Part shown: positions 11,527 to 25,754 of the stretch, in pieces | Position numbering within the stretch: position 1 is the stretch's first letter | Layout: each line of letters opens with the position of its first letter | Assembly (NCBI GenBank): GCA_013203595.1 | Contig: JABMNT010000113.1 | Span: 1-33,563 of the forward strand | DNA: 33,563 nucleotides | Reading direction: 5' to 3' | Source: Rhodospirillales bacterium | GTDB taxonomy: Bacteria > Pseudomonadota > Alphaproteobacteria > Rhodospirillales > Casp-alpha2 | Program-made: the position numbers and the translations under genes | The notes under the pieces: model-generated | Told to the model about the DNA's origin: nothing | The model's input: the letters and a program-made list of their open reading frames with translations, nothing else | The model's database searches: none

Positions 11527-12696
11527 ATGGCAGAAACCATCGACCGGATTGAAGCGTTCGCCCTTCGCATTCCGCGAAATATTCCCTATCTGGGTGCCCT
11601 TGAGGACGGGGTTGCGGTCAACCATCACGGTTACTTCGTGCGCAGTAAAAACAAAACCCTTTATCCGGCCGCCGACCAGAGCGTTTTGGTCAAGATTACT
11701 TCGTCCGGCGGGGCCATTGGCTGGGGTGAATGTTTTGCATCGGTGGCACCCCACGTGGTCAGCCATCTGATCAACACCATTATCGGGCCGTTCCTGATCG
11801 GCCGTGATCCGGCCGATGTCTCAGTCATCTACGAAGACATGTACGACATGATGCGGGTGCGAGGCTTCTTTGGCGGCTTTTACGTGGACTCCCTGGCTGG
11901 TATCGATATCGCGCTGTGGGACCTGAAGGGCAAGCTGGCCGGGCAATCCGTTGCCAAACTGCTGGGTGGTGTCCGCAACACGAAACTGCCGTGCTATGTG
12001 TCGGGTCTGCCGAAACCGACCCTGCCCGAGCGGGCTGCCCTGGCCGGCGAATATGTCAACCGCGGCTTCAGGGCGGTCAAGTTTGCGGCGGCGGTATCGT
12101 TCGAAGGAGAAGTTGCCGAAATGAAGGCGCTGCGCGATAGTGTAGGGCCTGATGTGCAAATTCTCTGCGATATGCATTGGCAGCATACCGCCCACCAGGC
12201 GATCAAGATTATCAATGCCATGGATGCCTATGACCTGGCGGTTGCCGAAGCGCCGGTCAACGCCGAAGACCAGGAAGGCCAGGCCCATGTCAGCGCCGCC
12301 GTCGCGGTGCCGGTTGCCATCGGCGAGGAACTGCGCACCCGCTACGAATTTCGTCCGCGCTTTGTCAACCGCTGCATGTCCATCGTTCAACCCGATGTTG
12401 CCCATACCGGGATCACCGAGTTTATGAACATCTGCCGGATGGCCGCCGGTTTCCATTGCCAAGTGATGCCCCATGCCACCATTGGCCTGGGGCTGCAGCA
12501 GGCCGCCAGTCTGCAATGTGCGGCAACCCTGGCCAATTCACCCCTGCAGGAATATCAGCATTCGGTGTTTGATAAAAACCTGCAGTTTGTCGATACCGAT
12601 ATGAAAGTCGAAGCCGGCTTTTTCCATTTGCCGACGGGTCCGGGCATTGGTGCGGAGCCGACACCCGAGGTTTTCGATCTGGTTTTTGACGCCTGA
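11527..12696 (+). CDS. mandelate racemase/enolase-superfamily protein, probable acid-sugar dehydratase
   Basis: This 389-residue TIM-barrel enzyme should abstract a proton alpha to a carboxylate and use Mg2+. Metal ligands are recognisable as Asp215 (CDMHW), Glu241 (AEAP) and Glu267 (IGEE). An Asp290-His316 pair (QPD...MPHATIG) matches the general-base dyad. His217, two residues after the first metal Asp, fits the D-x-H pattern of galactonate/mannonate-type dehydratases. Only one lysine of the usual KxK motif is visible (K185, followed by F-A), so dehydration is favoured over racemisation. GAGGTAAA precedes the ATG. It is followed 16 bases later by the aldolase gene, a dehydratase-aldolase pairing typical of sugar-acid breakdown. 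Substrate unknown. Confidence 0.85.
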   Translation: MAETIDRIEAFALRIPRNIPYLGALEDGVAVNHHGYFVRSKNKTLYPAADQSVLVKITSSGGAIGWGECFASVAPHVVSHLINTIIGPFLIGRDPADVSVIYEDMYDMMRVRGFFGGFYVDSLAGIDIALWDLKGKLAGQSVAKLLGGVRNTKLPCYVSGLPKPTLPERAALAGEYVNRGFRAVKFAAAVSFEGEVAEMKALRDSVGPDVQILCDMHWQHTAHQAIKIINAMDAYDLAVAEAPVNAEDQEGQAHVSAAVAVPVAIGEELRTRYEFRPRFVNRCMSIVQPDVAHTGITEFMNICRMAAGFHCQVMPHATIGLGLQQAASLQCAATLANSPLQEYQHSVFDKNLQFVDTDMKVEAGFFHLPTGPGIGAEPTPEVFDLVFDA

Positions 12697-12712
12697 CCCC
12701 AAGGACAATGCA

Positions 12713-13618
12713 ATGCCCCATCATCCCTACAAAGGTATATTCCCGATCCTCTATACGTTCTTCAACAAGGACGGTTCCATCGACAGGGACGCCATGAAAC
12801 GCCAGGTTGATGTGTGCATCAACGCCGGTGCCCACGGCATTGCCATTCTGGGCATCGTCGGCGAATTTGATAAACTGGATGTCAACGAAAAGTGCCGGAT
12901 TACCGAGATCGTTGCCGAAGCTGTGGCCGGGCGGGTGCCGCTGGCGGTTACGGTTTCTGAGCCGAGTGTGCCCGGTCAAATTGAGTTTATGAAGGCCGCC
13001 GAAGGCATGGGCGCCGACTGGACAATCCTGCAGCCACCGCAACTGAAAGGTATCCCCGAGATAGAGATTATCCGCTTTTTTGGCGCCGTGGCCGAACAGG
13101 CGGGTAAACCCGTCGCCCTGCAAAACAATCCAGTCAATCTGAACGTCTGGCTGAGCAATGACGGCTTGAAAACGGTCAACCGCAACCATCCGAATGTTAA
13201 TCTCCTGAAAGGCGAGGGGCCGATCCCGGTGGTGCAGAAACTGATGGAGGAAACCGATGGTGTGTTTGACGTCTTTACTGGTCTGGGCGGCCGCGAGCTG
13301 ACCCTGACCCATGCGCTCGGCTGCGTCGGCTGTATACCGGCGCCCGATTGCATTGATATTCAGTGCAGGATGTTTGAATTGCTCGACGCCGGAGATGCCG
13401 CCAGTCTTGAGGCGGCCGAAAACCTGCACCGCTCGATCCTGCCGATGATTCAGTTTGCCCTGCATTCGCCGGCCCACATGCTGGCCTATGGCAAACAGAT
13501 GTTTGCCTGGCGCGCAGGCATTGGTCAGGTCCATCCCCGGGCGCCCGCATTAACGGCCGATGCCTACAACCTGGGTGTGGCGAAAGCCTTTATTGATCCG
13601 CTGGCGCCGCTGGCCTGA
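12713..13618 (+). CDS. DHDPS/NAL-family aldolase or lyase
   Basis: This 301-residue class I aldolase-type TIM barrel forms a Schiff base with a 2-oxo acid. The G-x-x-G-E motif is present as GIVGE (47-51), and Lys166 in LLKGEGP is the expected Schiff-base lysine. The segment that normally reads Y-N-x-P is LQNNP, so the catalytic tyrosine is replaced by Gln137. The enzyme is therefore unlikely to be a true dihydrodipicolinate synthase. It probably cleaves or dehydrates a 2-keto-3-deoxy acid made by the upstream dehydratase (inference). ATG 12713 is preferred, with AAGGA (12701-12705) seven bases upstream; in-frame codons further 5' lie inside the previous gene. Confidence 0.87.
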   Translation: MPHHPYKGIFPILYTFFNKDGSIDRDAMKRQVDVCINAGAHGIAILGIVGEFDKLDVNEKCRITEIVAEAVAGRVPLAVTVSEPSVPGQIEFMKAAEGMGADWTILQPPQLKGIPEIEIIRFFGAVAEQAGKPVALQNNPVNLNVWLSNDGLKTVNRNHPNVNLLKGEGPIPVVQKLMEETDGVFDVFTGLGGRELTLTHALGCVGCIPAPDCIDIQCRMFELLDAGDAASLEAAENLHRSILPMIQFALHSPAHMLAYGKQMFAWRAGIGQVHPRAPALTADAYNLGVAKAFIDPLAPLA

Positions 13619-13642
13619 ACAGCCATTTTCCAGGGCCCGGAG

Positions 13643-13662
13643 CCGATAAATTATCGGTTTTT
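13643..13662 (+). terminator. rho-independent terminator candidate after the aldolase
   Basis: CCGAT (13643-13647) pairs with ATCGG (13653-13657) around an AT loop and is followed by TTTTT. The stem is short, so efficiency is uncertain, but the position 25 bases after the stop codon is right. Confidence 0.5.
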
Positions 13663-13710
13663 GGAATCTCGGCACGGAAATTGCTCATTCAACAGGGTTA
13701 TACACGACAA

Positions 13711-14307
13711 ATGGTGGACCGGATGAAACCAGATATCTCCCTCAGGGGCCCTCAGATTAACACAGACCAGGCTTTTGGACTGCGGCGTAAAGCGCCCTCA
13801 CCATCGGCGGGTTTTGCGTCGATGCTGGATGCTGACCAGTTAAAGGCGGAAGTTGCGGCCAATAGAAACCATGTTTTCGCCCGGCAGAAACAAGCCCCGG
13901 AATCCATAGCTAAGGAAGATATTGCATTTATACGCAAGCACGGGATGAGTGCCTATGTGGAACAGGTGCATAAGGAAAAAATCGCCGAAATGCGGGCTAA
14001 AATCCTGACTGCCATGGGCCTGTCCGAAGACAGTCTCGGGCAAATGCCGGCTGGCCAGCGACGTATTATTGAGCAAATGATTACCGATGAAATTCAGAAA
14101 CGATTAGAGGCGAATTCTGTTATGAACAATAAATCCACAAATGATAACGGCTCCTACCTGAAAACAATGATGATGGCCAATGGCAGCAACGGGTTCTTTA
14201 CCGGACCATCCCTGTCTGCCTTCGTCAGCTTCAAAGACCATTTTTCCCATGATTCAGATAATGATCCGGCTTTCGCTTTTTTCCGCAGCAAACCGGAAGA
14301 AAAGTGA
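13711..14307 (+). CDS. hypothetical protein
   Basis: This soluble protein of about 198 residues has no signal peptide or membrane helix. The N-terminus is polar and probably disordered. A charged helical core runs from about residue 65 to 140, including AMGLSEDSLGQMPAGQRRII, and the C-terminal part is Asn/Ser-rich. I do not recognise a domain; the core looks conserved rather than random. The start is uncertain: ATG 13711, ATG 13723 (with GGTGGA just upstream) and a TTG at 13681 are all possible. It stands alone between two terminators and is probably a housekeeping gene unrelated to the flanking catabolic genes. Confidence 0.65.
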   Translation: MVDRMKPDISLRGPQINTDQAFGLRRKAPSPSAGFASMLDADQLKAEVAANRNHVFARQKQAPESIAKEDIAFIRKHGMSAYVEQVHKEKIAEMRAKILTAMGLSEDSLGQMPAGQRRIIEQMITDEIQKRLEANSVMNNKSTNDNGSYLKTMMMANGSNGFFTGPSLSAFVSFKDHFSHDSDNDPAFAFFRSKPEEK

Positions 14308-14348
14308 CCGGCAATAATTGCCCGGGTCAATCCATCGACAAACAAACA

Positions 14349-14379
14349 GACAAAAGCGGGCTGCAAGGGCAGCCCGCTT
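14349..14379. terminator. strong bidirectional rho-independent terminator
   Basis: A perfect 12-bp stem, AAAAGCGGGCTG (14349-14360) with CAGCCCGCTTTT (14367-14378), has a 6-base loop. T-runs occur on both strands. It lies between convergent genes and can serve the hypothetical gene (plus) and the TRAP operon (minus). Confidence 0.92.
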
Positions 14380-14408
14380 TTTCATGTGTTCGATGAAACG
14401 GACTGGCT

Positions 14409-14534
14409 TTAAGAAAAGCCGTCAGACAGAACAAACATAATCACCGTAATAAAAATACCAAACCCGATGCCGGCGATCCACGGCCAGGGACCGTACATTC
14501 TCATTTCATCGTCATGTGCATCTTGATCAATCAT
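14409..14534 (-). CDS. 41-residue single-helix membrane protein in the TRAP operon
   Basis: This short frame starts at ATG (complement of 14532-14534) with an AGGAG ribosome binding site upstream and stops at TAA (14409-14411). The product has an acidic N-terminus (MIDQDAHDDE) and one strongly hydrophobic helix containing WPWIAGIGFGIFITVIMFVL. It begins 24 bases after the permease gene ends, on the same strand and just before the terminator, so it is very likely the last gene of the TRAP operon. Such a peptide could be a permease-associated subunit. I know of no named family for it. Confidence 0.7.
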   Translation of the reverse strand: MIDQDAHDDEMRMYGPWPWIAGIGFGIFITVIMFVLSDGFS

Positions 14535-14558
14535 TTTGGGGCTCCTGTAAGGCGGCTA

Positions 14559-16598
14559 TCAATTAAGCAGTTTCGGTAAATAGAGGGCAATTTCCGGGAC
14601 AAACATGACGGTCAGCAGACCAATGATCTGCAGTCCGATAAATGGAATTACCGAGGCAAATATTTCCTGCAGGGTGACGTCTTTCGGGGCTACGGATTTG
14701 AGCCAGAAACAGGCCGGGCCAAAGGGTGGCGAGAGGAAATAGATCTGGATGTTCATGACGAACAGAACGCCAAACCAGACCGCCGCCCATTCGGGTTCCA
14801 TCCCCAGTTCAGGGGCCAGGGTGACGATAACCGGTGCGAACACCGGAACCGTGATAAAGGCGATGGCAATCCATTCCATGAAGGTTCCGAGAACAACCAG
14901 AATTCCCATCATCACGAAGATGATACCAATAGCCGGCAGGCCAAGTCCGGTGAACAGGCTGCGCATGAAATCGGCACCGCCGATCAGATTGTAAATGCCG
15001 ACAAAGGCGATGGCACCCAGGATCAGCCAGATGATGGTGCCGACCGTCGACATGGTGCCGGCCAGGGCCTGCTGCATGAGTGGCCAGCTGAACTTGTTGC
15101 GCACGGCCGCCACCAGCATTCCACCAAGAACGCCAACGCCTGCGGCCTCGGTGACCGAAGCGACACCGCCGTAAATGGAGCCCATGACACCGGCAATCAA
15201 CAGGATGCACAGAGCAACGGCGACCATGCGTTCCTTGGACAGCTTGGTGTCGCCGCCGGTCATTTTCGCAACTTCTTCGGCGGTGGGAGCCAGAGACGGG
15301 TTGAGATGGCAACGGATCAATACGAAGATGGCATAAAACACGGCCAGCATGAGACCGGGCAGGGCGCCGGCCAGGAACAGATCACCAATCGAAATTTCGG
15401 CGGACAGGGCATAGACGATCATGATGATACTGGGCGGGATCAGGGTCGCCAGCGAGCCCGACGCGCAGATCACGCCGATGGACAATTTCCGGTCATAGCC
15501 AAGGCGCAGCATCTGCGGCAGGGCGACCAGGCCGAGCATGACAATCTCGCCGCCCATGACACCGGACATGGCGGCCAGAATGACGGCAACGGCAATGGTT
15601 TGTACGGCCACACCACCGCGCAGGTTGCCGGCAAATATGGACATGGCATCGAACAAATCCTTGGCGATGCCGGCGCGCTCGAGAATTGATGCCATCAGGA
15701 CAAACAACGGTACGGCAACCAGCGGATATTTTTCAAGCAGGCCAAAGGCGTTGCTGGAAACCAGATACAGGCCGTTCGGGCCAAAGAACAGCAAGGCGCA
15801 CAGCACGGAAACGATCAGTGTGACAATACCCAGCGGCATCCCGGTCATCATCAAAAAGACCAGAGTGACGACGATACCCAGGCTGATGATGCCGAGGCCC
15901 CATTCGCGGGCGTCAAACAGTTCGGATGGATCGAGGGCAATCAGAAAGCTGGCAAAAACGTCGTTGAGTGAACCGGCGGCACTCTCTTCACCCATATAGT
16001 GGGTGATGACTTGAACGGTCATGCGGAAAACGATAAAGGCGGCAGCGCCAATGACCACATTCTGCCAGAACGGCGAGGTGAAATGCCGTTTCAGGTTGAC
16101 CAGCAACTGGACCATGTAAACCATCGAGCCGAATGTCAGGGCAATTTTGAGAAGCATGGGGGCCGGTGAATTGAAGGAGGAGCCGACCCGCTCGACCACA
16201 TCGATGGATTCGAGGGTTTGAACCAGGGTGTCGCTGGCCAGCAAAAACAGGGCAAGCACACCAACGACCATGGCAACCAGATCAAGCCACCAGCGCTTGT
16301 TCTCGCTAACCAACAAATAGATGACGGTGATACCGATGTGACGTTTGTGAAAGGTGATATATCCGGCCGAGAGCATCCAGGCGGTGGCGCACAGGACCAT
16401 GACCACTTCAAAGGCCCACTGGGTCGGCGCATTGAATACATAGCGCATGACAACTTCATAAACGGTCACAAGTGCGCAGAGCAGGTAGAGCTGACCGACA
16501 GCAAGACCGCTGAAACGACTGAAATGATCAATGGCGTTTTCGACTTTTGATTTCGGCCCGTCAATGACGACAGCGGGTGCGGTGATTTGAATGTCCAT
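14559..16598 (-). CDS. TRAP transporter fused permease (DctQ-DctM)
   Basis: This 679-residue inner-membrane protein fuses the small and large permease subunits of a tripartite ATP-independent transporter. Residues about 25-190 are DctQ-like (YEVVMRYVFNAPTQWAFE). Residues about 235-675 are DctM-like, with the typical GSLATLIPPSI segment and many helices. Fusions of this kind are known in sialic acid and other TRAP systems. Uptake is driven by Na+ or H+ gradients with a periplasmic binding protein, here the gene at 16710-17756. AGGCGAG lies just upstream of the ATG. Confidence 0.93.
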   Translation of the reverse strand: MDIQITAPAVVIDGPKSKVENAIDHFSRFSGLAVGQLYLLCALVTVYEVVMRYVFNAPTQWAFEVVMVLCATAWMLSAGYITFHKRHIGITVIYLLVSENKRWWLDLVAMVVGVLALFLLASDTLVQTLESIDVVERVGSSFNSPAPMLLKIALTFGSMVYMVQLLVNLKRHFTSPFWQNVVIGAAAFIVFRMTVQVITHYMGEESAAGSLNDVFASFLIALDPSELFDAREWGLGIISLGIVVTLVFLMMTGMPLGIVTLIVSVLCALLFFGPNGLYLVSSNAFGLLEKYPLVAVPLFVLMASILERAGIAKDLFDAMSIFAGNLRGGVAVQTIAVAVILAAMSGVMGGEIVMLGLVALPQMLRLGYDRKLSIGVICASGSLATLIPPSIIMIVYALSAEISIGDLFLAGALPGLMLAVFYAIFVLIRCHLNPSLAPTAEEVAKMTGGDTKLSKERMVAVALCILLIAGVMGSIYGGVASVTEAAGVGVLGGMLVAAVRNKFSWPLMQQALAGTMSTVGTIIWLILGAIAFVGIYNLIGGADFMRSLFTGLGLPAIGIIFVMMGILVVLGTFMEWIAIAFITVPVFAPVIVTLAPELGMEPEWAAVWFGVLFVMNIQIYFLSPPFGPACFWLKSVAPKDVTLQEIFASVIPFIGLQIIGLLTVMFVPEIALYLPKLLN

Positions 16599-16626
16599 GG
16601 TTCTCGCCTGCGATTCTGATAAGCAT

Positions 16627-16652
16627 CCGGCCCGTCAAATGCGACGGGCCGG
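16627..16652 (-). other. intra-operon hairpin between binding protein and permease genes
   Basis: CCGGCCCGTC (16627-16636) pairs perfectly with GACGGGCCGG (16643-16652) around a 6-base loop. No T-run follows on the minus strand. It most likely protects or partially terminates the upstream dctP message so that binding protein exceeds permease, a common arrangement for SBP-dependent transporters (inference). Confidence 0.6.
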
Positions 16653-16709
16653 ACGACTGATTGTGGGTGATTTTTAACAGATGATCGGCTTGATTGCCGA
16701 CTCGTTCAA

Positions 16710-17756
16710 TTAAAAGTCAGGTCCCAAAAGTCCATATTCCTTCATGAACTTGATGTTCGCATCATATGCTTCCTGAGCCAATGGCGATTTTTCGGCGAAG
16801 GCTTTCCATGCGCCAACGGCGATTTCGCGGAACTTTGTACGTTCTTCCAACGTCCAGTCGATGACTTCCGTGACATTGCCATTTCCGGCTTTGTCGCGTG
16901 ACACCAGTTTGCGATCTTCCAGGTCGGAAGCGCGGCGGATGTCGTTGCTGTAGGCCAGATACCAGACATCAAGGATTGTCCGTTCCTGCTCCGACATTTT
17001 GTCCCATACCTTCTGGTTAATTACCATCTGGATAACAGCCATCGAGTGGATGCCCGGGTAAATGGGGAACTTGGCGATCTTGTGCAGGCCGCTGGATTCG
17101 TTGTTCACATAGGCGCTGGCGTCGGCCGCATCAACGATACCTTTTTCAAGCGATGTATAAACTTCGGAGAACGGGATCGCGACCGGAGCTGCACCGGCAC
17201 GTCTGAAGACTTCAGAAGCCAGGCCTTCTGGTGAGCGTACTTTTACGCCTTTGAAATCGGCGACGGAACGAATGGGTTTGGTGGCGACAAAGGCTTCGCG
17301 GGCGAAGGGACCGCAACCGATAACATGGATGCCTTTTTGTGCGTATTTGTCGAACAGTTTTTGCAGCATTTCCTTGCCGCCGCCGTTCATGCAGAACATG
17401 CCCATTTGATCGGTGGTATCGTACCCGGCGATCAAATCACCCATCAGGCCGAAACCCGCATCAAGACCCGAGAAATAGGCAACAGCGTTCAAATCACCGT
17501 CCAGAATACCGTTTTTGACGGCACTGATGGTTTCCCGGTGAGGAACGATTGCCCGGGTCGGTGCAATATCGATTTCCAGGGCACCGCCGGACATGGCTTT
17601 CAGTTTTGGTGCCCAGACTTCCGTCATGTATTTATAAGTAAAGCTGCCCGCAGAGGAGCTGGTTTGAAATTTAAGGACTTTCGCTTCGGCACTGCCCAGC
17701 GAACCTGTCATTGCAAAAGCACCAAGTGCCATTGCAAGTGTTACTTTTTTTAACAT
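16710..17756 (-). CDS. TRAP transporter periplasmic substrate-binding protein (DctP family)
   Basis: This 348-residue exported protein has a signal peptide (about 1-25, ...GSAEA) and a DctP-type body. The conserved arginine region reads DFKGVKVRSPEGLASEVF; this Arg binds the substrate carboxylate in known members. Later segments such as SLEKGIVDAADA and FPIYPGIHSMAV recall the 2-oxoacid (TakP-like) branch, but I would not assign a substrate. GGGAG precedes the ATG. It is first in the operon, followed by a strong hairpin, the fused permease and a small membrane protein. Its promoter faces the GntR gene and contains several palindromes. Confidence 0.92.
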   Translation of the reverse strand: MLKKVTLAMALGAFAMTGSLGSAEAKVLKFQTSSSAGSFTYKYMTEVWAPKLKAMSGGALEIDIAPTRAIVPHRETISAVKNGILDGDLNAVAYFSGLDAGFGLMGDLIAGYDTTDQMGMFCMNGGGKEMLQKLFDKYAQKGIHVIGCGPFAREAFVATKPIRSVADFKGVKVRSPEGLASEVFRRAGAAPVAIPFSEVYTSLEKGIVDAADASAYVNNESSGLHKIAKFPIYPGIHSMAVIQMVINQKVWDKMSEQERTILDVWYLAYSNDIRRASDLEDRKLVSRDKAGNGNVTEVIDWTLEERTKFREIAVGAWKAFAEKSPLAQEAYDANIKFMKEYGLLGPDF

Positions 17757-17773
17757 GTATATAGTCTCCCTAT

Positions 17774-17794
17774 TTGTACAATTATTTTGTACAG
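17774..17794. promoter_or_regulatory. paired TTGTACA sites upstream of dctP
   Basis: TTGTACAA (17774-17781, a perfect palindrome) and TTGTACAG (17787-17794) have centres 13 bases apart, close to the dctP start. Short palindromes with a GTAC core are typical of GntR/FadR-type operators. They could be repressor sites overlapping the dctP promoter or leader. Confidence 0.4.
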
Positions 17795-17814
17795 ATTGAT
17801 TGCCAATAAAGTGG

Positions 17815-17832
17815 ATACTAATATATTAGTAT
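17815..17832. promoter_or_regulatory. perfect 18-bp palindrome, likely operator of the divergent GntR regulator
   Basis: ATACTAATATATTAGTAT reads identically on both strands. It sits between the divergent dctP (start 17756) and GntR (start 17885) genes, 58 and 52 bases from the two starts. Autoregulated FCD regulators commonly bind such sites. The half-site recurs at 11481-11490. Confidence 0.65.
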
Positions 17833-17884
17833 CATTGGTCAACCCTAATGAGACCTACAACCCGACTGACATCAGGTTTTTTTT

Positions 17885-18571
17885 ATGAAAATTGATCGCC
17901 GCCAATCAACCGCCTATCAGATATACGACAGTTTGCATCAGCAGATTATCGATATGTCACGGGTGCCGGGATCGGTTATATCCAAGCAGGATATCGCCAA
18001 ATCCTTCGAGGTCAGCCCGAGTCCGGTTCGCGATGCCCTGTTGCGGCTGCAATCGGAAGGTCTGGTTGATATCGTCCCGCAATCGAAAACGTCGGTATCC
18101 CTTATCGATGTGCAGAAGGCGCGTGAACTTCATTTTTTGCGTCTGAGTGTGGAAATTGAAGTGGTGCGCGAACTTTCGAAACGAATCACTGCGGAGCAAC
18201 TGGCTGAACTGGAAGTCTGGAACGCGCGGCTTTCCGTCGAGTTCAAGGCGGAAAACACAACCGCATTTCGGCTGACCGATACGGCCTTTCATGAACGTTT
18301 GTATGATTTTGCCGGGGTGCCTGGAATCGTCGATATCATTCAGGCCCATCGCGGCCACTACGATCGGATTCGTGGTCTGTATCTGGCCTTTGGGCAACGC
18401 CAGAAACGTGTGATTCTGGAACATAAGGAAATCCACCGGGCCATTAAAGCCGGTGACCCCTTGGCTGCTGAAAACGCGGTGCGTCAGCATCTCGGCAAAT
18501 CGCTGGCCATTATTGAAGAAATTCGCGCCCAGAACCCGACCTATTTCAAGAAAGAAGATACCGGTTTATGA
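17885..18571 (+). CDS. GntR-family transcriptional regulator, FCD subfamily
   Basis: This 228-residue DNA-binding protein has an N-terminal winged helix (about 10-75, with ISKQDIAKSFEVSPSPVRDALLRL as recognition region, split around residue 48). Its C-terminal all-helical FCD domain binds a metal and an organic acid. Candidate ligands are the Asp/His of TDTAFHERL, the histidine of HRGHYDR, EHKEIH and QHL. It is divergent from the TRAP operon and coupled to the aminotransferase gene (ATGA at 18568), so it probably senses the imported acid or a breakdown product. The start ATG 17885 follows an eight-T run with CAGG as a weak ribosome binding site. Confidence 0.9.
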   Translation: MKIDRRQSTAYQIYDSLHQQIIDMSRVPGSVISKQDIAKSFEVSPSPVRDALLRLQSEGLVDIVPQSKTSVSLIDVQKARELHFLRLSVEIEVVRELSKRITAEQLAELEVWNARLSVEFKAENTTAFRLTDTAFHERLYDFAGVPGIVDIIQAHRGHYDRIRGLYLAFGQRQKRVILEHKEIHRAIKAGDPLAAENAVRQHLGKSLAIIEEIRAQNPTYFKKEDTGL

Positions 18572-19794
18572 CCTTTGAATTTGGCTCCCTGTTTCGTCCC
18601 CGCTTACCCGCCGCCGCCGCGGCACCCTTTGCCGGTTACCCCAAATATTATTTCGTTGGTGGCAACAATGATGCAGACACAGTGCCGACCAAAAAACTGG
18701 GTGAAATCGCCAAGGCGGTTCTCGAACGCGAAGGAAGCATCCTGGCCCTCTATGGGGTCGGCCACGGACCGCAGGGTTACCTGCCCCTGCGCCAGTTTAT
18801 CGCCAAAACATTGCATCAAAAAGCCGCCCTTGCCTGCCACGTGGACGAAATACTGGTGACGTCGGGATCCCTGCAGGCCCTTGATTTGGTCAACAACCTG
18901 TTTCTCGAACCGGGTGATACGGTGCTGGCTGAGGAAGCCTCCTATGGCGGCGCGGTGTCGCGTCTGAAAGCGCTCGGTGCCAACGTCATCGGCATCGATA
19001 TGGACGAGGACGGAATGCGGATGGATCATCTGCGCCAGGTTCTGGCTGATCTGAAGCGCCACGGGATACGGCCCAAGTTTATCTACACCATTCCAACCGT
19101 GCAAAACCCGTCGGGAACCGTATTGACGACGGCGCGCCGTCTGGAGCTTCTGGAAATTGCCGAGCTCTTTGAAATCCCCATATTCGAAGACGACTGCTAT
19201 GCCGATTTGTTGTGGGAAGGCGAACGTCCACCGGCGATCCGGGCTTTGGATAAAACCGGCCGCGTGATCTATTGCGGTTCCTTTTCCAAATTGATTGCAC
19301 CGGGTTTTCGGGTCGGCTACATCGTTGCCGACTGGCGGATTATTGCCCAGATACTGCCAACCAAAAAAGACGGCGGCAGCGGGGCCCTCGAGCAAATGGT
19401 GCTGGCCGAGTTTGCGGCGTCGGAATTTGATCAGCACGTCGCCAAACTGAGCGGCGTATTGCGTGACAAATGCCAGGTCATGGCCGATGCCCTGGAAGAG
19501 CATTTTGGCACCACCGCCGAATTTGCCATGCCGAAAGGCGGCATCTTCATCTGGATCACCTTGCCGGACATCGTCAATACCTCGGAACTTGCAAAAGCCG
19601 CCCTTGCCGAAGGCGTGGAAATCAATCCGGGAGCGGAATGGGTTGTCGATCCGGCGACCGGGAAAAACCGCATGCGCCTGTGCTTTGCCAGTCCGTCGAA
19701 GCAGCAAATTCGCGACGGTGTGAAATTGCTTGCTGAAATCTGTCACCGCGAGACCGGTGTGCCGGTCCGCAGTGCCAACGTCGCCCGCCCATGA
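18568..19794 (+). CDS. PLP-dependent aminotransferase, class I/II (2-aminoadipate/MocR-like fold)
   Basis: This 408-residue fold-type I aminotransferase should swap an amino group between an amino acid and a 2-oxo acid. PLP contacts are visible: QNPSG (Asn180), EDDCYADL (Asp208, Tyr211) and the Schiff-base lysine Lys241 in GSFSKLIAPGFRVGY. A terminal substrate-carboxylate arginine is expected in the MRLCFASP segment. Its ATG overlaps the GntR stop, and its own TGA overlaps an ATG at 19791 that may or may not be used by the next gene. Coupling to the regulator and the RraA-like gene suggests transamination of the imported compound or an intermediate (inference). Confidence 0.9.
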   Translation: MTFEFGSLFRPRLPAAAAAPFAGYPKYYFVGGNNDADTVPTKKLGEIAKAVLEREGSILALYGVGHGPQGYLPLRQFIAKTLHQKAALACHVDEILVTSGSLQALDLVNNLFLEPGDTVLAEEASYGGAVSRLKALGANVIGIDMDEDGMRMDHLRQVLADLKRHGIRPKFIYTIPTVQNPSGTVLTTARRLELLEIAELFEIPIFEDDCYADLLWEGERPPAIRALDKTGRVIYCGSFSKLIAPGFRVGYIVADWRIIAQILPTKKDGGSGALEQMVLAEFAASEFDQHVAKLSGVLRDKCQVMADALEEHFGTTAEFAMPKGGIFIWITLPDIVNTSELAKAALAEGVEINPGAEWVVDPATGKNRMRLCFASPSKQQIRDGVKLLAEICHRETGVPVRSANVARP

Positions 19795-19823
19795 ATTCAA
19801 CCGTAGCCGACAGAGGAACTGAA

Positions 19824-20522
19824 ATGACACATCCATCCAACGCAGACATCCAGAAACTGGCGCAATGGGACACGCCGACGATCTGTAACGCCCTTGAAGT
19901 GGTCTGTCCCGACCGCCGTGGTTACGGCTACACGGTTGATCCGTTTGTCTGTTTTGACCCGTCCCTGGGGTCCATGGTTGGCCGGGCACGGACGGCCAAG
20001 CTCAGAGCCTGCCAGCCGCAGGCCGGCGGCTACAAGGGCCTGCAGGATCGCATTGGCTGGTACGAATATGTGGCTGAAGCCGACGGACCAACCATCGTGG
20101 TCATTGAGGATATCGATCCGAAACCCGGCGTTGGCGCGTTCTGGGGCGAGGTCCATACCCATGTGCACGGCGGACTGGGTGCACTGGGTGTCATTACCAA
20201 CGGGGCATTCCGCGACATTCCTGACAACAAACCGGGCTTTCAGTTGCTGGGCGGCTCGGTCTGCCCGAGCCATGCCTTCGTCCATCTGACGGCCTACAAC
20301 ATACCGGTTATCGTCAACGGGATGGAGGTCAATCCCAACGACATTATTCACGCCGACCAGCACGGCGCCATTGTTGTTCCCGAAGACATGGTCTGCGAAT
20401 TGCCCGGCGGTGTGGAATTTATGATTCGCAAGGAGGCGGTGATCCTCGATGCGGCGAAAAAGCCAGGCTTCAATATCGATGTCCTGAAGGCGGCGATCAA
20501 GAATCAGGGTGAAATTCATTAA
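19824..20522 (+). CDS. RraA / 4-hydroxy-4-methyl-2-oxoglutarate aldolase-like protein
   Basis: This protein of about 232 residues is from the RraA fold family, which includes divalent-metal pyruvate aldolases that cleave 4-hydroxy-2-oxo acids. The diagnostic G-x-x-R-D element is present as ITNGAFRD (Arg130, Asp131), preceded by GEVHTHVHGGLGALG. ATG 19824 is preferred because AGAGGA lies eight bases before it. An in-frame ATG at 19791 overlapping the previous stop would add 11 residues. A retro-aldol activity acting on the 2-oxo acid made by the upstream aminotransferase would make chemical sense, but this is inferred. Confidence 0.83.
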   Translation: MTHPSNADIQKLAQWDTPTICNALEVVCPDRRGYGYTVDPFVCFDPSLGSMVGRARTAKLRACQPQAGGYKGLQDRIGWYEYVAEADGPTIVVIEDIDPKPGVGAFWGEVHTHVHGGLGALGVITNGAFRDIPDNKPGFQLLGGSVCPSHAFVHLTAYNIPVIVNGMEVNPNDIIHADQHGAIVVPEDMVCELPGGVEFMIRKEAVILDAAKKPGFNIDVLKAAIKNQGEIH

Positions 20523-20585
20523 AAGGGGGTTTCCGCACCCTTGATCTAGTGCTAGCAAATTAGCCTGACTTTTAAGGGAGGGGAT

Positions 20586-21365
20586 ATGATGGGTGCCAGT
20601 GGCATTAAGGATCAACGGGTTCTGGTAACGGCCGGGGCGTCGGGCATCGGTCGGGCAATTGCTGATTTGCTGATTGCCAATGGCGCGCGGGTTCATATCT
20701 GCGATATTGGCGACGAATTTCTGGATGATTTTGCCAAGGCCCATCCGACTGCGGGAATAACAAAGGCGGACGTCTCCAGTGAAGCGGACGTTGAGCGGAT
20801 GTTTGCCGATGCCAGCGCAGGGCTTGGCGGACTGGACGCGCTGATCAATAACGCCGGTATTGCCGGGCCGACGCAGCCGGTTGAAGATATTTCCCCGGCC
20901 GACTGGCGGCGATGTCTGGATATTGGCCTGACCGGGCAGTTTTTGTGTACCCGTCTGGCCGTGCCGATGTTGAAAAAAGCCGGCGGCGGATCGATTGTCA
21001 ATATGTCGTCGGTGGCCGGTAAATATGGCTTTCCGTTCCGTTCGCCCTATTCGGCCGTCAAGTACGGGGTGATCGGGATTACCGAAACCTGGGCCCGCGA
21101 ACTGGGCCCTTCCAACATCCGGGTCAATGCCATCCAGCCCGGCGTCGTTGAGGGTGCGCGCATTGAAGCGGTGATCAGCGCAAGGGCCAAGTAATATGGC
21201 AAATCCTACGGAGAGATTGAAGCCGGGTTGCTCGAACATGTTTCCCTGCGGCGTATGGTGACCGCCCATGATGTGGCCGAAATGACCATGTTTTTACTGT
21301 CTGACGCGGCCCGCAATATTTCCGGGCAATCGATTGCCGTCGATGGCAACGTTGAAACCCTTTAG
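20586..21365 (+). pseudogene. short-chain dehydrogenase/reductase gene interrupted by one in-frame TAA
   Basis: The frame encodes an SDR with TAGASGIG (15-22) for NAD(P), NNAG, the S-Y-K centre (SPYSAVK, Tyr155 and Lys159) and PGVVEGARIEAVI. At codon 203 (21192-21194) it meets TAA. Reading on in the same frame gives YGKSYGEIEAG and then a typical SDR C-terminus with NISGQSIAVDGNVETL before TAG at 21363-21365. So a single base change, plausibly CAA to TAA, splits an otherwise intact 259-codon gene. The truncated 202-residue product would lack the last beta strand and substrate-side helices. Two ATGs (20586, 20589) follow GGGAGGGG. A sequencing error is possible. Confidence 0.85.
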
Positions 21366-21376
21366 GGAGATCATGC

Positions 21377-22336
21377 ATGAGTAAGATTGCCATTATCGGA
21401 AGCGGCTTCATCGGCCGCGCCTGGGCCATCAGCTACGCCCGCGCCGGCCACGATGTGGTCATCTGGGATATTGAAGGCGATGCGCCGGTCAAGGCCGTCT
21501 CCTATATTGAAGGGGTGCTGGGGGATCTGGATTCGAACGGTTTGCTGAACGGCAACACGCCGGTTCAGGTGCTGCGCCGCCTATCGACGACGTCGGATTT
21601 GCAGGCGGCCCTGAGGGATGTGGATTACGTTCAGGAAAACACCCCGGAAAACGTCGACATCAAGAAAAAGATATTTGCCGAACTCGACGTGCTGACACCA
21701 CAAGACGCGGTGATCGCCAGTTCGACTTCGGCTATATTGCCATCCAAGTTCACCGAAGAACTGGCGGGCCGCGGCCGTTGTCTGGTGGTGCACCCGATCA
21801 ATCCACCTTATCTGGTGCCGGCCGTCGAAATTGTCCCGGCGCCCTGGACAACCCCGGAGACGGTTGCCAAGGCAAAGGACCTGCTGGTCTCGGCCGGTCA
21901 TAAACCGATTGTCATGAAACGCGAGCTGGATGGCTTTGTGATGAACCGGCTGCAGGGTGCGTTGCTGGAAGAGGCCTTTCGTCTGGTTGAAGACGGTTAT
22001 GCGAGCATCGAGGATGTGGATATCGGGATCCGTGAGGGACTGGCCCTGCGCTGGTCGTTCATGGGGCCGTTTGAGACCATTGATCTGAACGCGCCGGGTG
22101 GTGTCCGTGATTATGTGGAACGCTACCAGAGCATTTATCAGAACATTTTCCCGTCCATGTGCCACCGGGCCGACTGGGGCGGCAAGGTGCTGGATCAGAT
22201 CGAGGCCGACCGGCGCCAGGTGCTGGCCGAAGACAAACTGGTGGATCGCCAGATCTGGCGGGACAAACGATTGATGGCACTGGCCGCTCATAAATTGCAG
22301 GCGGCTGAAGACTTAGACACCGAACAGGGAGAATAG
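21377..22336 (+). CDS. 3-hydroxyacyl-CoA dehydrogenase-like protein (lambda-crystallin / L-gulonate or carnitine dehydrogenase type)
   Basis: This 319-residue NAD-dependent enzyme should oxidise a 3-hydroxy acid or 3-hydroxyacyl compound to the 3-oxo form. The Rossmann motif is GSGFIG (8-13). The catalytic region has ASSTS (Ser115-118) and His139 in HPINPPYLVPAVEIVP with Glu151, the form seen in lambda-crystallin-type 3-dehydrogenases acting on free acids. A C-terminal helical dimerisation domain follows. GGGAG precedes the ATG. It sits four bases before the BKACE gene, and such pairs are known in carnitine-type catabolism, where the dehydrogenase makes the beta-keto acid that BKACE cleaves. 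Confidence 0.88.
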   Translation: MSKIAIIGSGFIGRAWAISYARAGHDVVIWDIEGDAPVKAVSYIEGVLGDLDSNGLLNGNTPVQVLRRLSTTSDLQAALRDVDYVQENTPENVDIKKKIFAELDVLTPQDAVIASSTSAILPSKFTEELAGRGRCLVVHPINPPYLVPAVEIVPAPWTTPETVAKAKDLLVSAGHKPIVMKRELDGFVMNRLQGALLEEAFRLVEDGYASIEDVDIGIREGLALRWSFMGPFETIDLNAPGGVRDYVERYQSIYQNIFPSMCHRADWGGKVLDQIEADRRQVLAEDKLVDRQIWRDKRLMALAAHKLQAAEDLDTEQGE

Positions 22337-22339
22337 ATT

Positions 22340-23272
22340 ATGGCGAGCTCAAACAAAGTTATTATTACCTGCGCAATTACCGGCGGTATCCATACCCCGA
22401 CGATGACCCCGCATTTGCCGATCACGCCTGATCAAATCACCAACGAAGCGCTGGCGGCGGCGGAAGCCGGGGCGTCGATTTTGCATCTGCATGCCCGCGA
22501 CCCTGAAAACGGCAAGCCGGATCAGTCGCCGGAAGCCTTTCAGAAGTTTCTGCCGCGGATCAAACAGGCAACGGCTTCGGCCATCAACATCACCACCGGT
22601 GGCGCGCCCAATATGACCGTGGAAGAGCGGGTCCGCCCGGCCGCCCAGTTTGCCCCGGAAGTGGCGTCTCTGAACATGGGAACCATGAACTTCGGGCTGT
22701 TTCCCCTGGGTGAGAAATACAAGGAATTCAAATACGACTGGGAGCAGCCGTTTTTTGAAGGCACCCGGGCCGGGTTTTTCCGCAATACCTTCGCCGATAT
22801 CGAATATGTGCTGGAAACCTGCTACAACAACGACACCCGTTTCGAGTTCGAATGCTACGACATTTCCCATCTCTATAACCTCAACCATTTTGTCCAGCGC
22901 GGCCTGGTCAAGGCGCCGTTCTTCGTGCAGTCGGTATTTGGTATTCTGGGTGGCATCGGCACCCATCCGGAAGATGTCATGCATATGAAACGCACCGCCG
23001 ACCGCCTGTTCGGCGACGACTTGCGCTGGTCGGTTCTGGGCGCCGGGGCTTCGCAAATGCGCATCGCCGCGCAGGCCGCAGCCATGGGCGGCAATATCCG
23101 GGTTGGCCTGGAAGACAGTATCTGGGCCGGTAAGGGCGTGCTTGCCAAATCCAATGCCGATCAGGTGATCATGGCCCGCAAAATCATCGAGGGCCTGGGC
23201 CTTGAAGTCGCCTCTCCCGATGATGCCCGTGAAATCCTGCAACTCAAAGGCGCCGACCGGACGAATATCTAA
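22340..23272 (+). CDS. beta-keto acid cleavage enzyme (BKACE, DUF849)
   Basis: This 310-residue zinc-dependent TIM-barrel enzyme condenses a beta-keto acid with acetyl-CoA to give acetoacetate and a new acyl-CoA. The zinc-binding LHLHARD motif (His49, His51) is intact, as are NITTGG and the downstream GLEDS (Glu258), and an FEFECYD segment carries a further conserved acid. The ribosome binding site AGGGAGAA lies at the end of the dehydrogenase gene, so the two are co-translated. It is the last clear gene of the plus-strand catabolic block. Which side chain it accepts cannot be read with confidence. Confidence 0.92.
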   Translation: MASSNKVIITCAITGGIHTPTMTPHLPITPDQITNEALAAAEAGASILHLHARDPENGKPDQSPEAFQKFLPRIKQATASAINITTGGAPNMTVEERVRPAAQFAPEVASLNMGTMNFGLFPLGEKYKEFKYDWEQPFFEGTRAGFFRNTFADIEYVLETCYNNDTRFEFECYDISHLYNLNHFVQRGLVKAPFFVQSVFGILGGIGTHPEDVMHMKRTADRLFGDDLRWSVLGAGASQMRIAAQAAAMGGNIRVGLEDSIWAGKGVLAKSNADQVIMARKIIEGLGLEVASPDDAREILQLKGADRTNI

Positions 23273-23281
23273 AGCAGACTA

Positions 23282-23323
23282 ACATTTCTCCTGATTTGGA
23301 TGACATTTCTCCTGATTTGGATG
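23282..23323. repeat. two exact tandem copies of a 21-bp unit
   Basis: A 21-bp unit (starting acatttctcctgattt and ending ggatg) occurs at 23282-23302 and 23303-23323, with four bases of a third copy. It marks the junction between the catabolic block and the CBS gene. It could be slippage or a leftover of a mobile-element end. Confidence 0.85.
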
Positions 23324-23384
23324 ACATGTGCAGGCTCAAATTTAGCGTTTTCAGTATCAGGGTTTAGATGGAGGAAATTTATTT

Positions 23385-23819
23385 TTGAGCGCTATAACAC
23401 TTATTCCAGACGTCGTTAGAAACCAGGATATCCATTCTCTATCAAGTGTCGAAACAGCAACTGCTGCGGCAAAATTGATGATGGAAAAAGATATATCTGC
23501 TGTGTTGGTCTACGATGATAAATCTGCGTTGATCGGAATTGTTACTGAAAGGGATATTGCGCGCCGGGTCGTTGCTCAGGAACAGGATCCAAAAACGGTC
23601 CTTTTATCTGATTTGATGACACGTAATGTGTTCTCAGTCTTGCCGACAGATTCTCCTACCTATGCTCTTAGAAAGATGGTCGACAAAAAATGCCGTCATT
23701 TACCCATTGTCGAGCAAGGACGTGTTCTGGGAATGGTGTCCATGCGTGATTTGCGTATATCTCTTTCGATGATGACGGGGACGCGAGGAAGATCTTTGTT
23801 CTCCCGCTTTTTTGGATGA
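23385..23819 (+). CDS. CBS-domain pair protein
   Basis: This 144-residue soluble protein is made almost entirely of two CBS motifs (about residues 8-66 and 76-132), which bind adenine nucleotides and regulate partner proteins. Typical elements are LIGIVTERDIARR, the DLMT linker and VLGMVSMRDLR. The start is TTG 23385 with GGAGGAAA ending nine bases before it; no in-frame ATG fits. The stop overlaps the next ATG (ATGA at 23816), so it is coupled to the membrane protein that follows and may gate it by energy state (inference). Confidence 0.85.
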   Translation: MSAITLIPDVVRNQDIHSLSSVETATAAAKLMMEKDISAVLVYDDKSALIGIVTERDIARRVVAQEQDPKTVLLSDLMTRNVFSVLPTDSPTYALRKMVDKKCRHLPIVEQGRVLGMVSMRDLRISLSMMTGTRGRSLFSRFFG

Positions 23820-24718
23820 GCTTGAAGTTGTCGGCTGCAACCGGAAATCATGACCTTTATGACCGTCTATGTCGGTTTGAAATCGATGAGCTGTCACCTT
23901 CGCTCACTTTTGTGCAGAGACTTGCCAGAGAAAACAACTGGACGGAATCCTATAGCGACCGGGTTGTTGTCGAATACAAACGGTTTTTATATCTAATGGT
24001 CGTCTCTGGTCATCCTGTTACGCCGTCAGATCAGGTTGATCAAGCCTGGCATCTTCATTTGACCTATACGAAATCCTATTGGGAGCGTTTATGCGCGGAC
24101 CTGATTGGGCGACCACTTCACCACACACCGACCAATGGCGGGCCGAGTGAAAGTGAAAAATTTGAAAATTGGTATGACCGTACCAAGCAGGTGTACCGCT
24201 CTGTATTTGGTGAAGAGGCACCAACGGATATTTGGCCGAAGCCCTCTGTTCGATTTGGGACTGATCTTTATTTTCAGAGATTGAACGTAAAGCGAAACTG
24301 GATTTTTTCGAAACCAACATGGCTGCTGCGTCTGAGCGAGGACATATCAAGAAAATGGCGGCAGGTATCCGTATTATCGGCTTTGAGCCCGGCCATGGTG
24401 ATTACTCCTACTTCGTACGCGCAGGCTTACCAGAACAGCTCATCGAGCAATGTCAAAATTATCAGTTTTTTTATATTGGTATGTATAGGGGCGGTGTTGT
24501 TTATATTTAAGCTGACACAACATATATGCCCAAATTGCTATGGGTTTAAGCTATACGAGATTGACCGTTATCACACCGAAGAAGAGGATATCGTTTTTGA
24601 TTACGGGTGTTCAAAATGCGGCCACCGATTGTCACGAACGGTTAGGTCTAAAGATTCTGGGGGCTCTGGAGGCTGTGGCAGTGCGGGTTGTGGTGGCTGT
24701 GGTGGATGCGGGGGATAA
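23816..24718 (+). CDS. membrane protein with GRDP-like N-terminus, zinc-ribbon-like pair and Gly/Cys-rich tail
   Basis: This 300-residue protein has an unusual layout. The cytoplasmic N-terminal region (about 10-135) contains VDQAWHLHLTYTKSYW (Trp78, His79, His81), which resembles the glycine-rich-domain protein-like family. One membrane helix lies at about 213-233. After it come CPNC (238-241) and CSKCGH (265-270), a probable zinc ribbon, and a tail of Gly and Cys (GGSGGCGSAGCGG). Similar Gly/Cys tails occur in bacterial proteins near the TIGR04222 group. Codon usage is more AT-rich than its flanks, suggesting separate ancestry. Function unknown; coupled to the CBS gene. Confidence 0.75.
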   Translation: MSLKLSAATGNHDLYDRLCRFEIDELSPSLTFVQRLARENNWTESYSDRVVVEYKRFLYLMVVSGHPVTPSDQVDQAWHLHLTYTKSYWERLCADLIGRPLHHTPTNGGPSESEKFENWYDRTKQVYRSVFGEEAPTDIWPKPSVRFGTDLYFQRLNVKRNWIFSKPTWLLRLSEDISRKWRQVSVLSALSPAMVITPTSYAQAYQNSSSSNVKIISFFILVCIGAVLFIFKLTQHICPNCYGFKLYEIDRYHTEEEDIVFDYGCSKCGHRLSRTVRSKDSGGSGGCGSAGCGGCGGCGG

Positions 24719-24789
24719 CAAGATGGTCGGCGGAGATTAAAAATAGCGTTGCGGGCATTTTTAAGCACTCTCGCAGGTGTCCCCGATTA

Positions 24790-25680
24790 TCAGCCAGACT
24801 TTTTATAGATGCCCCGGTCGGCCTTGCTCTGGGACTGGTATATCGACGTTGCATCGCTGTGGCGGGGCAGGGGCATGCGGACCGGGACGTCTTTCAGACG
24901 GGGGTGCAAAGTCGGCTCACCACATAACAGTTTGGCGTCGAATTCTTGCAGACTGACAATCTCGCTCATGCCGCCGGCAATGGGAAAGGCGTCGCCTGCC
25001 GCCATCTCATAGAGCAGCAGAGCCCGGTCCTTGTCGGACCGGTTGGCGTCGGAGCCGTGTAACATACGGACATGGTGAAAGCTGACGGAGCCGGCCGGGG
25101 CAATGCAGGGCACCGCTGTCGACAGATCGATGCCTTCCTTTTCGATATCGACGGCCCCACAAAAGACGCCGTCGTGGTGATGGTCATAGGTCGGGCCCTT
25201 GTGTGAGCCCGGCAGGAAATTCAGGGGACCATTGTCCGGCCCCACATCGTTGAGCAGAACACCGACCGCCGTCAGGTCGTCGTTGGTATGGGGGTAAAAG
25301 GCCCAGTCCTGGTGCCATTCCACCGGTGCCCCGTAGCCCTTAGATTTCATGTTCAGCTTCGAGGTCTTGAAGCGCACGGCGGGCCCGAGCAATTGTCTGA
25401 GTGGTCCGAGCAGGCGTTCATCGCGCATCAGATCATCGAAAATTTTGTGCTGCAGGACCGGGTTCTTGATCCGCCGGACCTTCGGGTTTTCCGGGGTATG
25501 GCTGTCTTCCAGATCGTAGACGTCGTCGCCTTCGCTCATGCCGGCGGCACCGGCACAGATTTCGTCGGTCACCCGCCGCATGTCGGCAACTTCGTCGGCA
25601 CTCAGAACCGACGGCAGGATGACAAAACCGGCGTCCCTGTATTGGGCTAACTGTTGGTCGGTAAGCAGGGGGCTTTGCAT
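24790..25680 (-). CDS. phytanoyl-CoA dioxygenase (PhyH) family protein
   Basis: This 296-residue Fe(II)/2-oxoglutarate-dependent oxygenase hydroxylates a small acid or acyl compound. The iron triad is visible as His123 and Asp125 in EWHQDW and His208 in HHVRMLHGS. Arg219 (DRALLL) is placed to bind 2-oxoglutarate. ATG 25680 is preferred over GTG 25689 because AAGG lies about ten bases upstream of the ATG but abuts the GTG. It is convergent with the CBS block and followed upstream by a TetR gene on the same strand, 65-75 bases away. It may hydroxylate a precursor for the catabolic island (inference). Confidence 0.88.
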   Translation of the reverse strand: MQSPLLTDQQLAQYRDAGFVILPSVLSADEVADMRRVTDEICAGAAGMSEGDDVYDLEDSHTPENPKVRRIKNPVLQHKIFDDLMRDERLLGPLRQLLGPAVRFKTSKLNMKSKGYGAPVEWHQDWAFYPHTNDDLTAVGVLLNDVGPDNGPLNFLPGSHKGPTYDHHHDGVFCGAVDIEKEGIDLSTAVPCIAPAGSVSFHHVRMLHGSDANRSDKDRALLLYEMAAGDAFPIAGGMSEIVSLQEFDAKLLCGEPTLHPRLKDVPVRMPLPRHSDATSIYQSQSKADRGIYKKSG

Positions 25681-25754
25681 GGGCGGCACCTTAACAAGGA
25701 AGTGATTGAGATCAACAAATGCTAGCTCAAAGCGATCAAAAAGTCCCGTCTCGT

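Follow-up and report, generated by a model that had tools for sequence, protein, structure and literature searches.

Gene content of the locus and its conservation in the genus

A contig of 33,563 nucleotides from a Rhodospirillales bacterium (JABMNT010000113.1, assembly GCA_013203595.1; this whole stretch is the window below) carries, between positions 11,527 and 25,680, a group of genes around a TRAP importer and a divergent GntR-FCD regulator. The group had been described in an initial annotation as a single catabolic island with three possible branches. Gene families were called from the list of open reading frames (ORFs) and from Pfam and NCBIfam profile scans of 20 window proteins, and each family named in that annotation was recovered at its place above the Pfam cut-off (Table 1). 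This includes the DctP, DctQ and DctM parts of the importer, for which the TIGR00786 score was 270.8 with a cut-off of 268.45. The two TRAP genes lie on the minus strand and the FCD, aminotransferase, RraA, SDR, HCDH and BKACE genes on the plus strand. The aminotransferase gene overlaps FCD on one side and RraA on the other, in each case by 4 bases, and 3 bases separate HCDH from BKACE. The gene annotated as a 3-hydroxyacid dehydrogenase does encode a dehydrogenase; its type is that of the 3-hydroxyacyl-CoA dehydrogenases and lambda-crystallin (NF004783), lambda-crystallin being also its best PDB match. BKACE matches PDB entries 3e49 and 8rio over the whole length and exceeds the cut-off of NF053538, a broad model which also covers distant BKACEs such as that of Thalassospira marina. 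The best PDB relative of TRAP-P, 4pe3, is named merely as a TRAP subunit.

Table 1. Features of the window discussed in the text.
Feature	Position	Strand	Evidence or remark
Enolase-superfamily acid-sugar dehydratase (MR_MLE)	11527-12696	+	Pfam MR_MLE_C 176 bits; judged outside the unit
DHDPS-family lyase	12713-13618 (ATG at 12713)	+	Pfam DHDPS 85 bits; partner of MR_MLE, judged outside the unit
TRAP permease TRAP-QM, DctQ-DctM fusion	14559-16598	-	Pfam DctM 220 bits, DctQ 58 bits
TRAP substrate-binding protein TRAP-P (DctP)	16710-17756	-	Pfam DctP 148 bits
Operator-like perfect palindrome GATACTAATATATTAGTATC, 20 nt	17814-17833	.	divergent TRAP-P / FCD gap
GntR-FCD regulator	17885-18571	+	Pfam FCD 79 bits, GntR 54 bits
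PLP aminotransferase, MocR / LysN type without HTH (helix-turn-helix) domain	18568-19794	+	Pfam Aminotran_1_2 117 bits
RraA-like aldolase-family protein	19791-20522	+	Pfam RraA-like 56 bits
SDR dehydrogenase gene	20586-21365	+	in-frame TAA 21192-21194; ORF to stop 20586-21194
L-3-hydroxy-acid dehydrogenase, HCDH / lambda-crystallin type	21377-22336	+	Pfam 3HCDH; NF004783 470.8 bits, cut-off 347
BKACE	22340-23272	+	Pfam BKACE 354 bits; NF053538 532 bits, cut-off 430
CBS-domain gene	23385-23819		between BKACE and PhyH
Gly-rich protein gene, without Pfam match	23816-24718		between BKACE and PhyH
PhyH-family Fe(II)/2-oxoglutarate oxygenase	24790-25689	-	Pfam PhyH 124.5 bits

The locus of the source genome (G000) was compared with three further genomes of the same genus (G001, G002 and G003). 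In G002, the order TRAP-QM, TRAP-P, FCD, aminotransferase, RraA, SDR, HCDH, BKACE, PhyH is kept with 73-97% protein identity, and G003 keeps order and strand with FCD and RraA undetected; a match was also seen at the DNA level. The identities in G002 and G003 are 90-94% for TRAP-QM, 94% and 79% for TRAP-P, 77% and 71% for the aminotransferase and 83% and 69% for PhyH, which adjoins BKACE in both, with values of 73% for FCD and 87% for RraA in G002. A 3.5-kb contig of G001 holds SDR, HCDH and BKACE together with incomplete aminotransferase and PhyH genes. Aminotransferase, SDR, HCDH, BKACE and PhyH therefore stay with TRAP in both same-genus loci that are long enough, and FCD and RraA in one of the two. 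Because order and strand are kept in two further genomes and G002 shares the palindrome of the TRAP-P / FCD gap without any change, the grouping is more than chance; the importer, the divergent regulator and the dehydrogenase-BKACE branch of the initial annotation belong together as a unit kept in the genus.

The SDR gene of the window is interrupted. Its frame halts at the TAA and would otherwise reach a TAG at 21363-21365, 11 bases before HCDH. G002, G003 and the contig of G001, the three loci of the genus in which the gene was read, all have an uninterrupted SDR, and the frame past the TAA is still conserved; the stop codon is therefore either a recent loss or a sequence error.

The stretch of 14 kb does not form a single unit. 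Two genes that the initial annotation did not name, CBS and Gly-rich, intervene here only: they were found neither at the unit in G002 and G003 nor on the G001 contig and are lineage-specific. They overlap each other by 4 bases, with a GC content of 0.44-0.47 as compared with 0.54 for the window. Homologues of MR_MLE (80%) and DHDPS (82%) lie on another contig in G002, followed by a relative of the 208-amino-acid ORF described below, and the close pair was undetected in G001 and G003. The pair is thus not beside the unit in either same-genus genome in which the unit was read; both G002 contigs end near these genes, so that a separation of about 14 kb or more could exist there. In Roseibium, a close MR_MLE relative is found inside its own sugar ABC-DHDPS cluster, a DHDPS match overlaps the MR_MLE match in 6 of the 20 plasmid rows listed, and neither gene lies near any of the 56 SDR-HCDH-BKACE loci presented in the next section. 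In the relatives read, MR_MLE-DHDPS forms a cassette of its own. The single island with three branches was consequently rejected for this pair, which is on another contig in G002 and undetected in G003, and the dehydratase-aldolase branch loses its place as a member of the unit.

The 208-amino-acid ORF at 13681-14307 has no Pfam or NCBIfam match; its relatives stand near MR_MLE-DHDPS in G002 (49%) and near TRAP in G003 (36%). Plasmid pSR-2 of Skermanella rosea (L198) presents an alternative partner set, in which PhyH, a TRAP of the window's family, LacI, two MR_MLE proteins and DHDPS occupy one stretch. Further downstream in the window, positions 27233-29212 encode a membrane-type sulfatase-fold protein with weak phosphoglycerol transferase and lipoteichoic acid synthase likeness, under those cut-offs.

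Relatives of the two modules

For the best 80 of 586 BKACE loci, from named genomes, the neighbourhoods were searched with proteins of the window and with reference proteins as queries. An SDR gene was found within 3.5 kb of BKACE in 59 of these 80 loci, an HCDH gene in 61 and both in 56, the latter being called trio loci. In the 56 trio loci, SMP-30 lactonases and GntR regulators occur in 46 each and a sugar ABC importer (at least 45% identity) in 43, all with SMP-30; TRAP is present in two and glycerate kinase in one. The aminotransferase and PhyH accompany a single trio, that of the same-genus contig, and RraA none of the 56. The 24 remaining loci include truncated contigs and other contexts, among which are four SAR116 or other alphaproteobacterial loci with TRAP. 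The trio layout was also read on annotated plasmids of Phyllobacterium, of Agrobacterium tumefaciens with glycerate kinase, and of Rhizobium ruizarguesonis with glycerate kinase and a LarA-like racemase. Other importers can stand by the trio: an LIV-type ABC system in Sagittula and Cereibacter, a TRAP in the window's layout on another Sagittula plasmid, and TRAP together with a CoA-transferase in two Roseovarius-type loci. Azospirillum is a relative that does not fit, its BKACE having no annotated SDR or HCDH within 8 kb. The complete ABC and SMP-30 form of the operon is found in the same family as the window (G011, L212). The widespread operon (L212 and the Rhizobiales loci L151, L152 and L163) comprises GntR, sugar ABC, SDR, HCDH, BKACE, SMP-30 and sometimes glycerate kinase. 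In Rhizobiales, where the SDR-HCDH-BKACE-lactonase operon has been annotated after 3-keto-5-aminohexanoate and bears generic or lysine-derived gene names, it would, if the reading proposed below is right, probably encode a deoxy-sugar pathway.

The importer and its regulator keep other company. TRAP-P neighbourhoods were read in 5 of the 11 other-genus genomes of the same family that have TRAP-P, from three genera, and in 12 of the 14 non-own genomes with TRAP-P in a class sample. In all five same-family loci, TRAP (62-65%) is accompanied by FCD, a dehydratase and a PRK08245-type RraA, in four by PhyH, and in none by BKACE. The dehydratase reached 1120 bits in the two such loci tested, for an L-arabinonate dehydratase cut-off of 882. 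The source genome has its own copy, of 1044 bits, on contig C63 beside its RraA and with no TRAP match there, so that the dehydratase exceeds the cut-off in all three cases tested. The class sample gave three of 12 loci with FCD, a dehydratase at 75-100% of the reference and RraA, and three others with PhyH; the rest had neither, or a more distant dehydratase match only. The presence of PhyH beside FCD, TRAP, arabinonate-type dehydratase and RraA in four of five loci (L213-L216, L218) places an oxygenase without evident role in an aldonate operon.

The palindrome is the sole match in the window, where shuffling predicts 0.14 at up to 2 mismatches. Its 14-nt core (at most 1 mismatch) was recovered in all nine other loci with FCD beside a TRAP of the window's family; it was absent from all 13 TRAP loci lacking FCD and from all 83 other BKACE loci. 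In G003, which is without FCD, only the outer half-sites remain. This distribution suggests a putative FCD operator. The core was not found upstream of the stranded dehydratase of contig C63, and shared regulation of that gene is therefore unsupported. In the five same-family loci, FCD, the palindromic operator, TRAP and, as a rule, PhyH make up an aldonate module.

A BKACE tree was built from 59 of 99 loci plus the window (60 rows, near-copies above 93% dropped) by a quick search without outgroup. It places the genus inside the ABC and SMP-30-type loci with an SH-aLRT of 94, A. tumefaciens and R. ruizarguesonis belonging to the same 12-locus set. The unit thus looks like a chimera, in which an FCD-operator-TRAP aldonate module has been joined to an SDR-HCDH-BKACE operon. 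The simplest history would be a transfer of the trio to a site behind the FCD-TRAP module, with the dehydratase remaining at another place in the genome; we infer this direction, the tree being unrooted. In T. marina, a TRAP of the window's family (56%) occurs with SDR and a distant BKACE beside an LIV-type importer, probably an independent event. The initial annotation had asked whether the enzyme genes occur apart from the TRAP and GntR genes in relatives, and the answer is mixed. The two sets stay together within the genus; outside it, the trio is mostly without this TRAP, the aminotransferase stands alone (14 loci) and TRAP-FCD goes with the L-arabinonate-type dehydratase.

The three remaining enzymes were also followed. 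The aminotransferase had a match at 1e-100 in 27 of 318 class genomes, own included. In 14 loci of its relatives, no window protein recurs save a weak SDR (29-31%) or TRAP (28-30%) in four, and none of the families common to three of these loci is an island gene; the aminotransferase was thus rejected as a substrate guide. With 408 residues, no N-terminal GntR HTH domain and 231.9 bits for a PdxR cut-off of 320, it was not retained as a MocR transcription factor either. Plasmid relatives of RraA (37-46%; six loci read) mostly accompany HisD-like and SDR dehydrogenases, hydrolases and sugar importers, and one stands next to an L-arabinonate dehydratase and another just after HCDH-BKACE (Microvirga sp. 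VF16). These surroundings are suggestive of sugar acids, not decisively. PhyH occurs in 28 of 240 class genomes and four plasmid records, of which two plasmid loci were read, and its closest solved relatives are EvdO2 and hydroxylases.

A proposed route for a short sugar acid

We propose, with a probability of roughly 55%, that two older modules have been combined in the unit into a pathway which takes up a short sugar acid through TRAP and cleaves it oxidatively. Gene content, co-conservation, operator conservation and the origins of the modules are observations, from which we infer the substrate class and every reaction. A short sugar acid is favoured because the genes that accompany the importer and sensor point there, as do those that accompany the enzymes, and a 2-deoxyaldonate because BKACE needs a beta-keto acid; 2-deoxyribonate is the most likely single candidate. 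TRAP-P would capture the acid and TRAP-QM bring it into the cell. HCDH, plus SDR where intact, would oxidise the C3 hydroxyl to give a beta-keto acid, which BKACE would convert with acetyl-CoA into acetoacetate and an acyl-CoA (glyceryl-CoA for a 2-deoxypentonate substrate). The acyl-CoA could then yield glycerate, which would enter glycolysis via glycerate kinase, and acetoacetate could yield acetyl-CoA. The hydrolase for glyceryl-CoA is noted as unknown in PMC9007349. FCD would repress from the palindrome until its ligand binds. Regulator, operator and importer, with PhyH and possibly RraA, would derive from a module importing a sugar acid for an L-arabinonate-type dehydratase, and SDR, HCDH and BKACE from an operon normally carrying a sugar ABC importer and SMP-30 lactonases. 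D-3-hydroxybutyrate-type SDRs and L-type HCDHs act on opposite C3 configurations, and a strain with a broken SDR may be limited to one epimer. The aminotransferase, RraA and PhyH would probably serve to feed in or clear away side compounds. The transaminase-aldolase branch of the initial annotation retains its coupling here through the 4-base overlaps and has no precedent outside the genus among the loci searched.

Several points weigh against this proposal. The scheme does not need the aminotransferase, RraA or PhyH, and SDR is interrupted in this very genome. No lactonase-family match was found among the 20 window proteins and no glycerate kinase in the window. A C5 acid would agree with the glycerate kinase seen beside some trio operons; this kinase was found, however, near only two of the 80 BKACE loci, one at 31% identity. 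A glycerate-kinase-type MOFRL gene above cut-off is present on contig C128 of the source genome (53% identical to the A. tumefaciens protein), and such a gene occurs in all seven genomes searched, hence is not discriminating. The SH-aLRT of 94 falls under the 95 mark and comes from a quick tree search. The NCBIfam name of the window BKACE (3,5-dioxohexanoate) does not designate a sugar acid, nor are the in-vitro substrates of a BKACE homologue sugar acids (PMC11961710). In Paraburkholderia bryophila, the authors suspect that HCDH acts on deoxyribonyl-CoA and not on the free acid (PMC6365646), and the likeness to that organism is one of gene types.

A plain or amino-substituted beta-hydroxy acid, either carnitine-like or derived from polyester or fatty-acid breakdown, is an alternative substrate which we consider unlikely; HCDH and BKACE would then act as in carnitine catabolism. 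The window HCDH is indeed related to carnitine dehydrogenases, and the BKACE homologue just mentioned takes beta-ketohexanoate, beta-ketopentanoate and 3,5-dioxohexanoate in vitro (PMC11961710). The HCDH by the T. marina pair scores higher as a carnitine dehydrogenase (260 bits) than with NF004783 (239 bits), under both cut-offs. However, the window HCDH is far below the cut-offs of the two carnitine dehydrogenase models (199 bits for 592, 175 for 414) and above its own, and BKACE obtains 233 bits with the 3-keto-5-aminohexanoate cleavage model NF052387, whose cut-off is 382. A carnitine or lysine-type BKACE substrate was rejected on these curated cut-offs. The trio is usually surrounded by sugar ABC importers and SMP-30 lactonases, and the TRAP module is paired with an aldonate dehydratase; both likewise speak against the beta-hydroxy acid reading.

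It is still less probable that an amino acid is imported, the aminotransferase yielding a 2-oxo acid which RraA cleaves while BKACE takes a side product. The overlaps between FCD, aminotransferase and RraA and the retention of the aminotransferase in both same-genus loci agree with such a route. Nevertheless, RraA is undetected in G003 though the aminotransferase is present, the aminotransferase is without conserved partners in the 14 other loci, and the TRAP and FCD relatives accompany a sugar-acid dehydratase, not aminotransferases.

A dehydratase-free route for ordinary aldonates appears quite improbable. The importer and sensor would take an L-arabinonate-type acid, HCDH would oxidise C3, BKACE would cleave a 2-hydroxy-3-keto acid, and PhyH, RraA or the aminotransferase would process the unusual product. 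Lambda-crystallin oxidises L-gulonate at C3. If true, this would mean a new BKACE substrate class with hydroxylated acetoacetate as product. Equally improbable is a dehydratase-aldolase pathway in which TRAP feeds MR_MLE and DHDPS and the whole stretch is one pathway: the pair adjoins TRAP in the window, the Skermanella plasmid unites these families and a distant MR_MLE lies at about 5 kb in two TRAP-PhyH loci, whereas the placement of the close pair in the genus, the separate Roseibium cluster, the 28-31% identity of the Skermanella MR_MLE proteins to that of the window and the lack of MR_MLE or DHDPS near the 56 trio loci all oppose it.

With oxidative cleavage of a short sugar acid as the preferred reading, the list of candidates, initially open to 2-oxo, hydroxy, amino and sugar acids, shrinks to short sugar acids, 2-deoxyaldonates first. 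If correct, the locus would illustrate the re-plumbing of a pathway, in which sensor, operator and importer are kept, the enzymes are swapped and the displaced dehydratase is still in the genome.

Comparison with known systems

One of the closest systems, with a reaction logic of C3 oxidation followed by BKACE cleavage, is the oxidative 2-deoxyribonate pathway of Pseudomonas simiae, Paraburkholderia bryophila and Burkholderia phytofirmans, in which SDR, HCDH and BKACE are clustered with a transporter and a regulator (Price et al. 2019, PMC6365646). According to the same paper, the P. bryophila cluster of SDR, HCDH, BKACE, transporter and AraC regulator proved important in mutants for growth on deoxyribose and on deoxyribonate, HCDH to a lesser degree, and the lactonase of the P. 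simiae cluster is less important on deoxyribonate itself. As compared with that description, the window differs by a TRAP instead of MFS transporters, FCD instead of AraC, no lactonase and an interrupted SDR, and adds the aminotransferase, RraA and PhyH.

The ABC-fed operons of Rhizobiales (for example A. tumefaciens pQ15_94_2, R. ruizarguesonis pRlX3 and Phyllobacterium zundukense) share GntR and the three enzymes, which are 55-78% identical and identically ordered, but carry an ABC importer and lactonases and are devoid of TRAP, aminotransferase, RraA and PhyH. Conversely, the modules of FCD, TRAP, L-arabinonate-type dehydratase and RraA, found in the same family and in three other alphaproteobacterial genomes, share TRAP-P (47-65%), FCD, the operator core and the RraA family with the window, and PhyH within the same family. 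They have the dehydratase in the operon and no SDR-HCDH-BKACE, whereas here the dehydratase is found with its RraA only, on contig C63. Plasmid unnamed1 of Sagittula stellata resembles the window by a TRAP divergent from a GntR-SDR-HCDH-BKACE-SDR operon, but its TRAP belongs to another subfamily and it has no aminotransferase, RraA or PhyH. No paper describing the full gene combination was found in the open-access collection searched. Each half of the unit resembles known systems, and their combination looks new.

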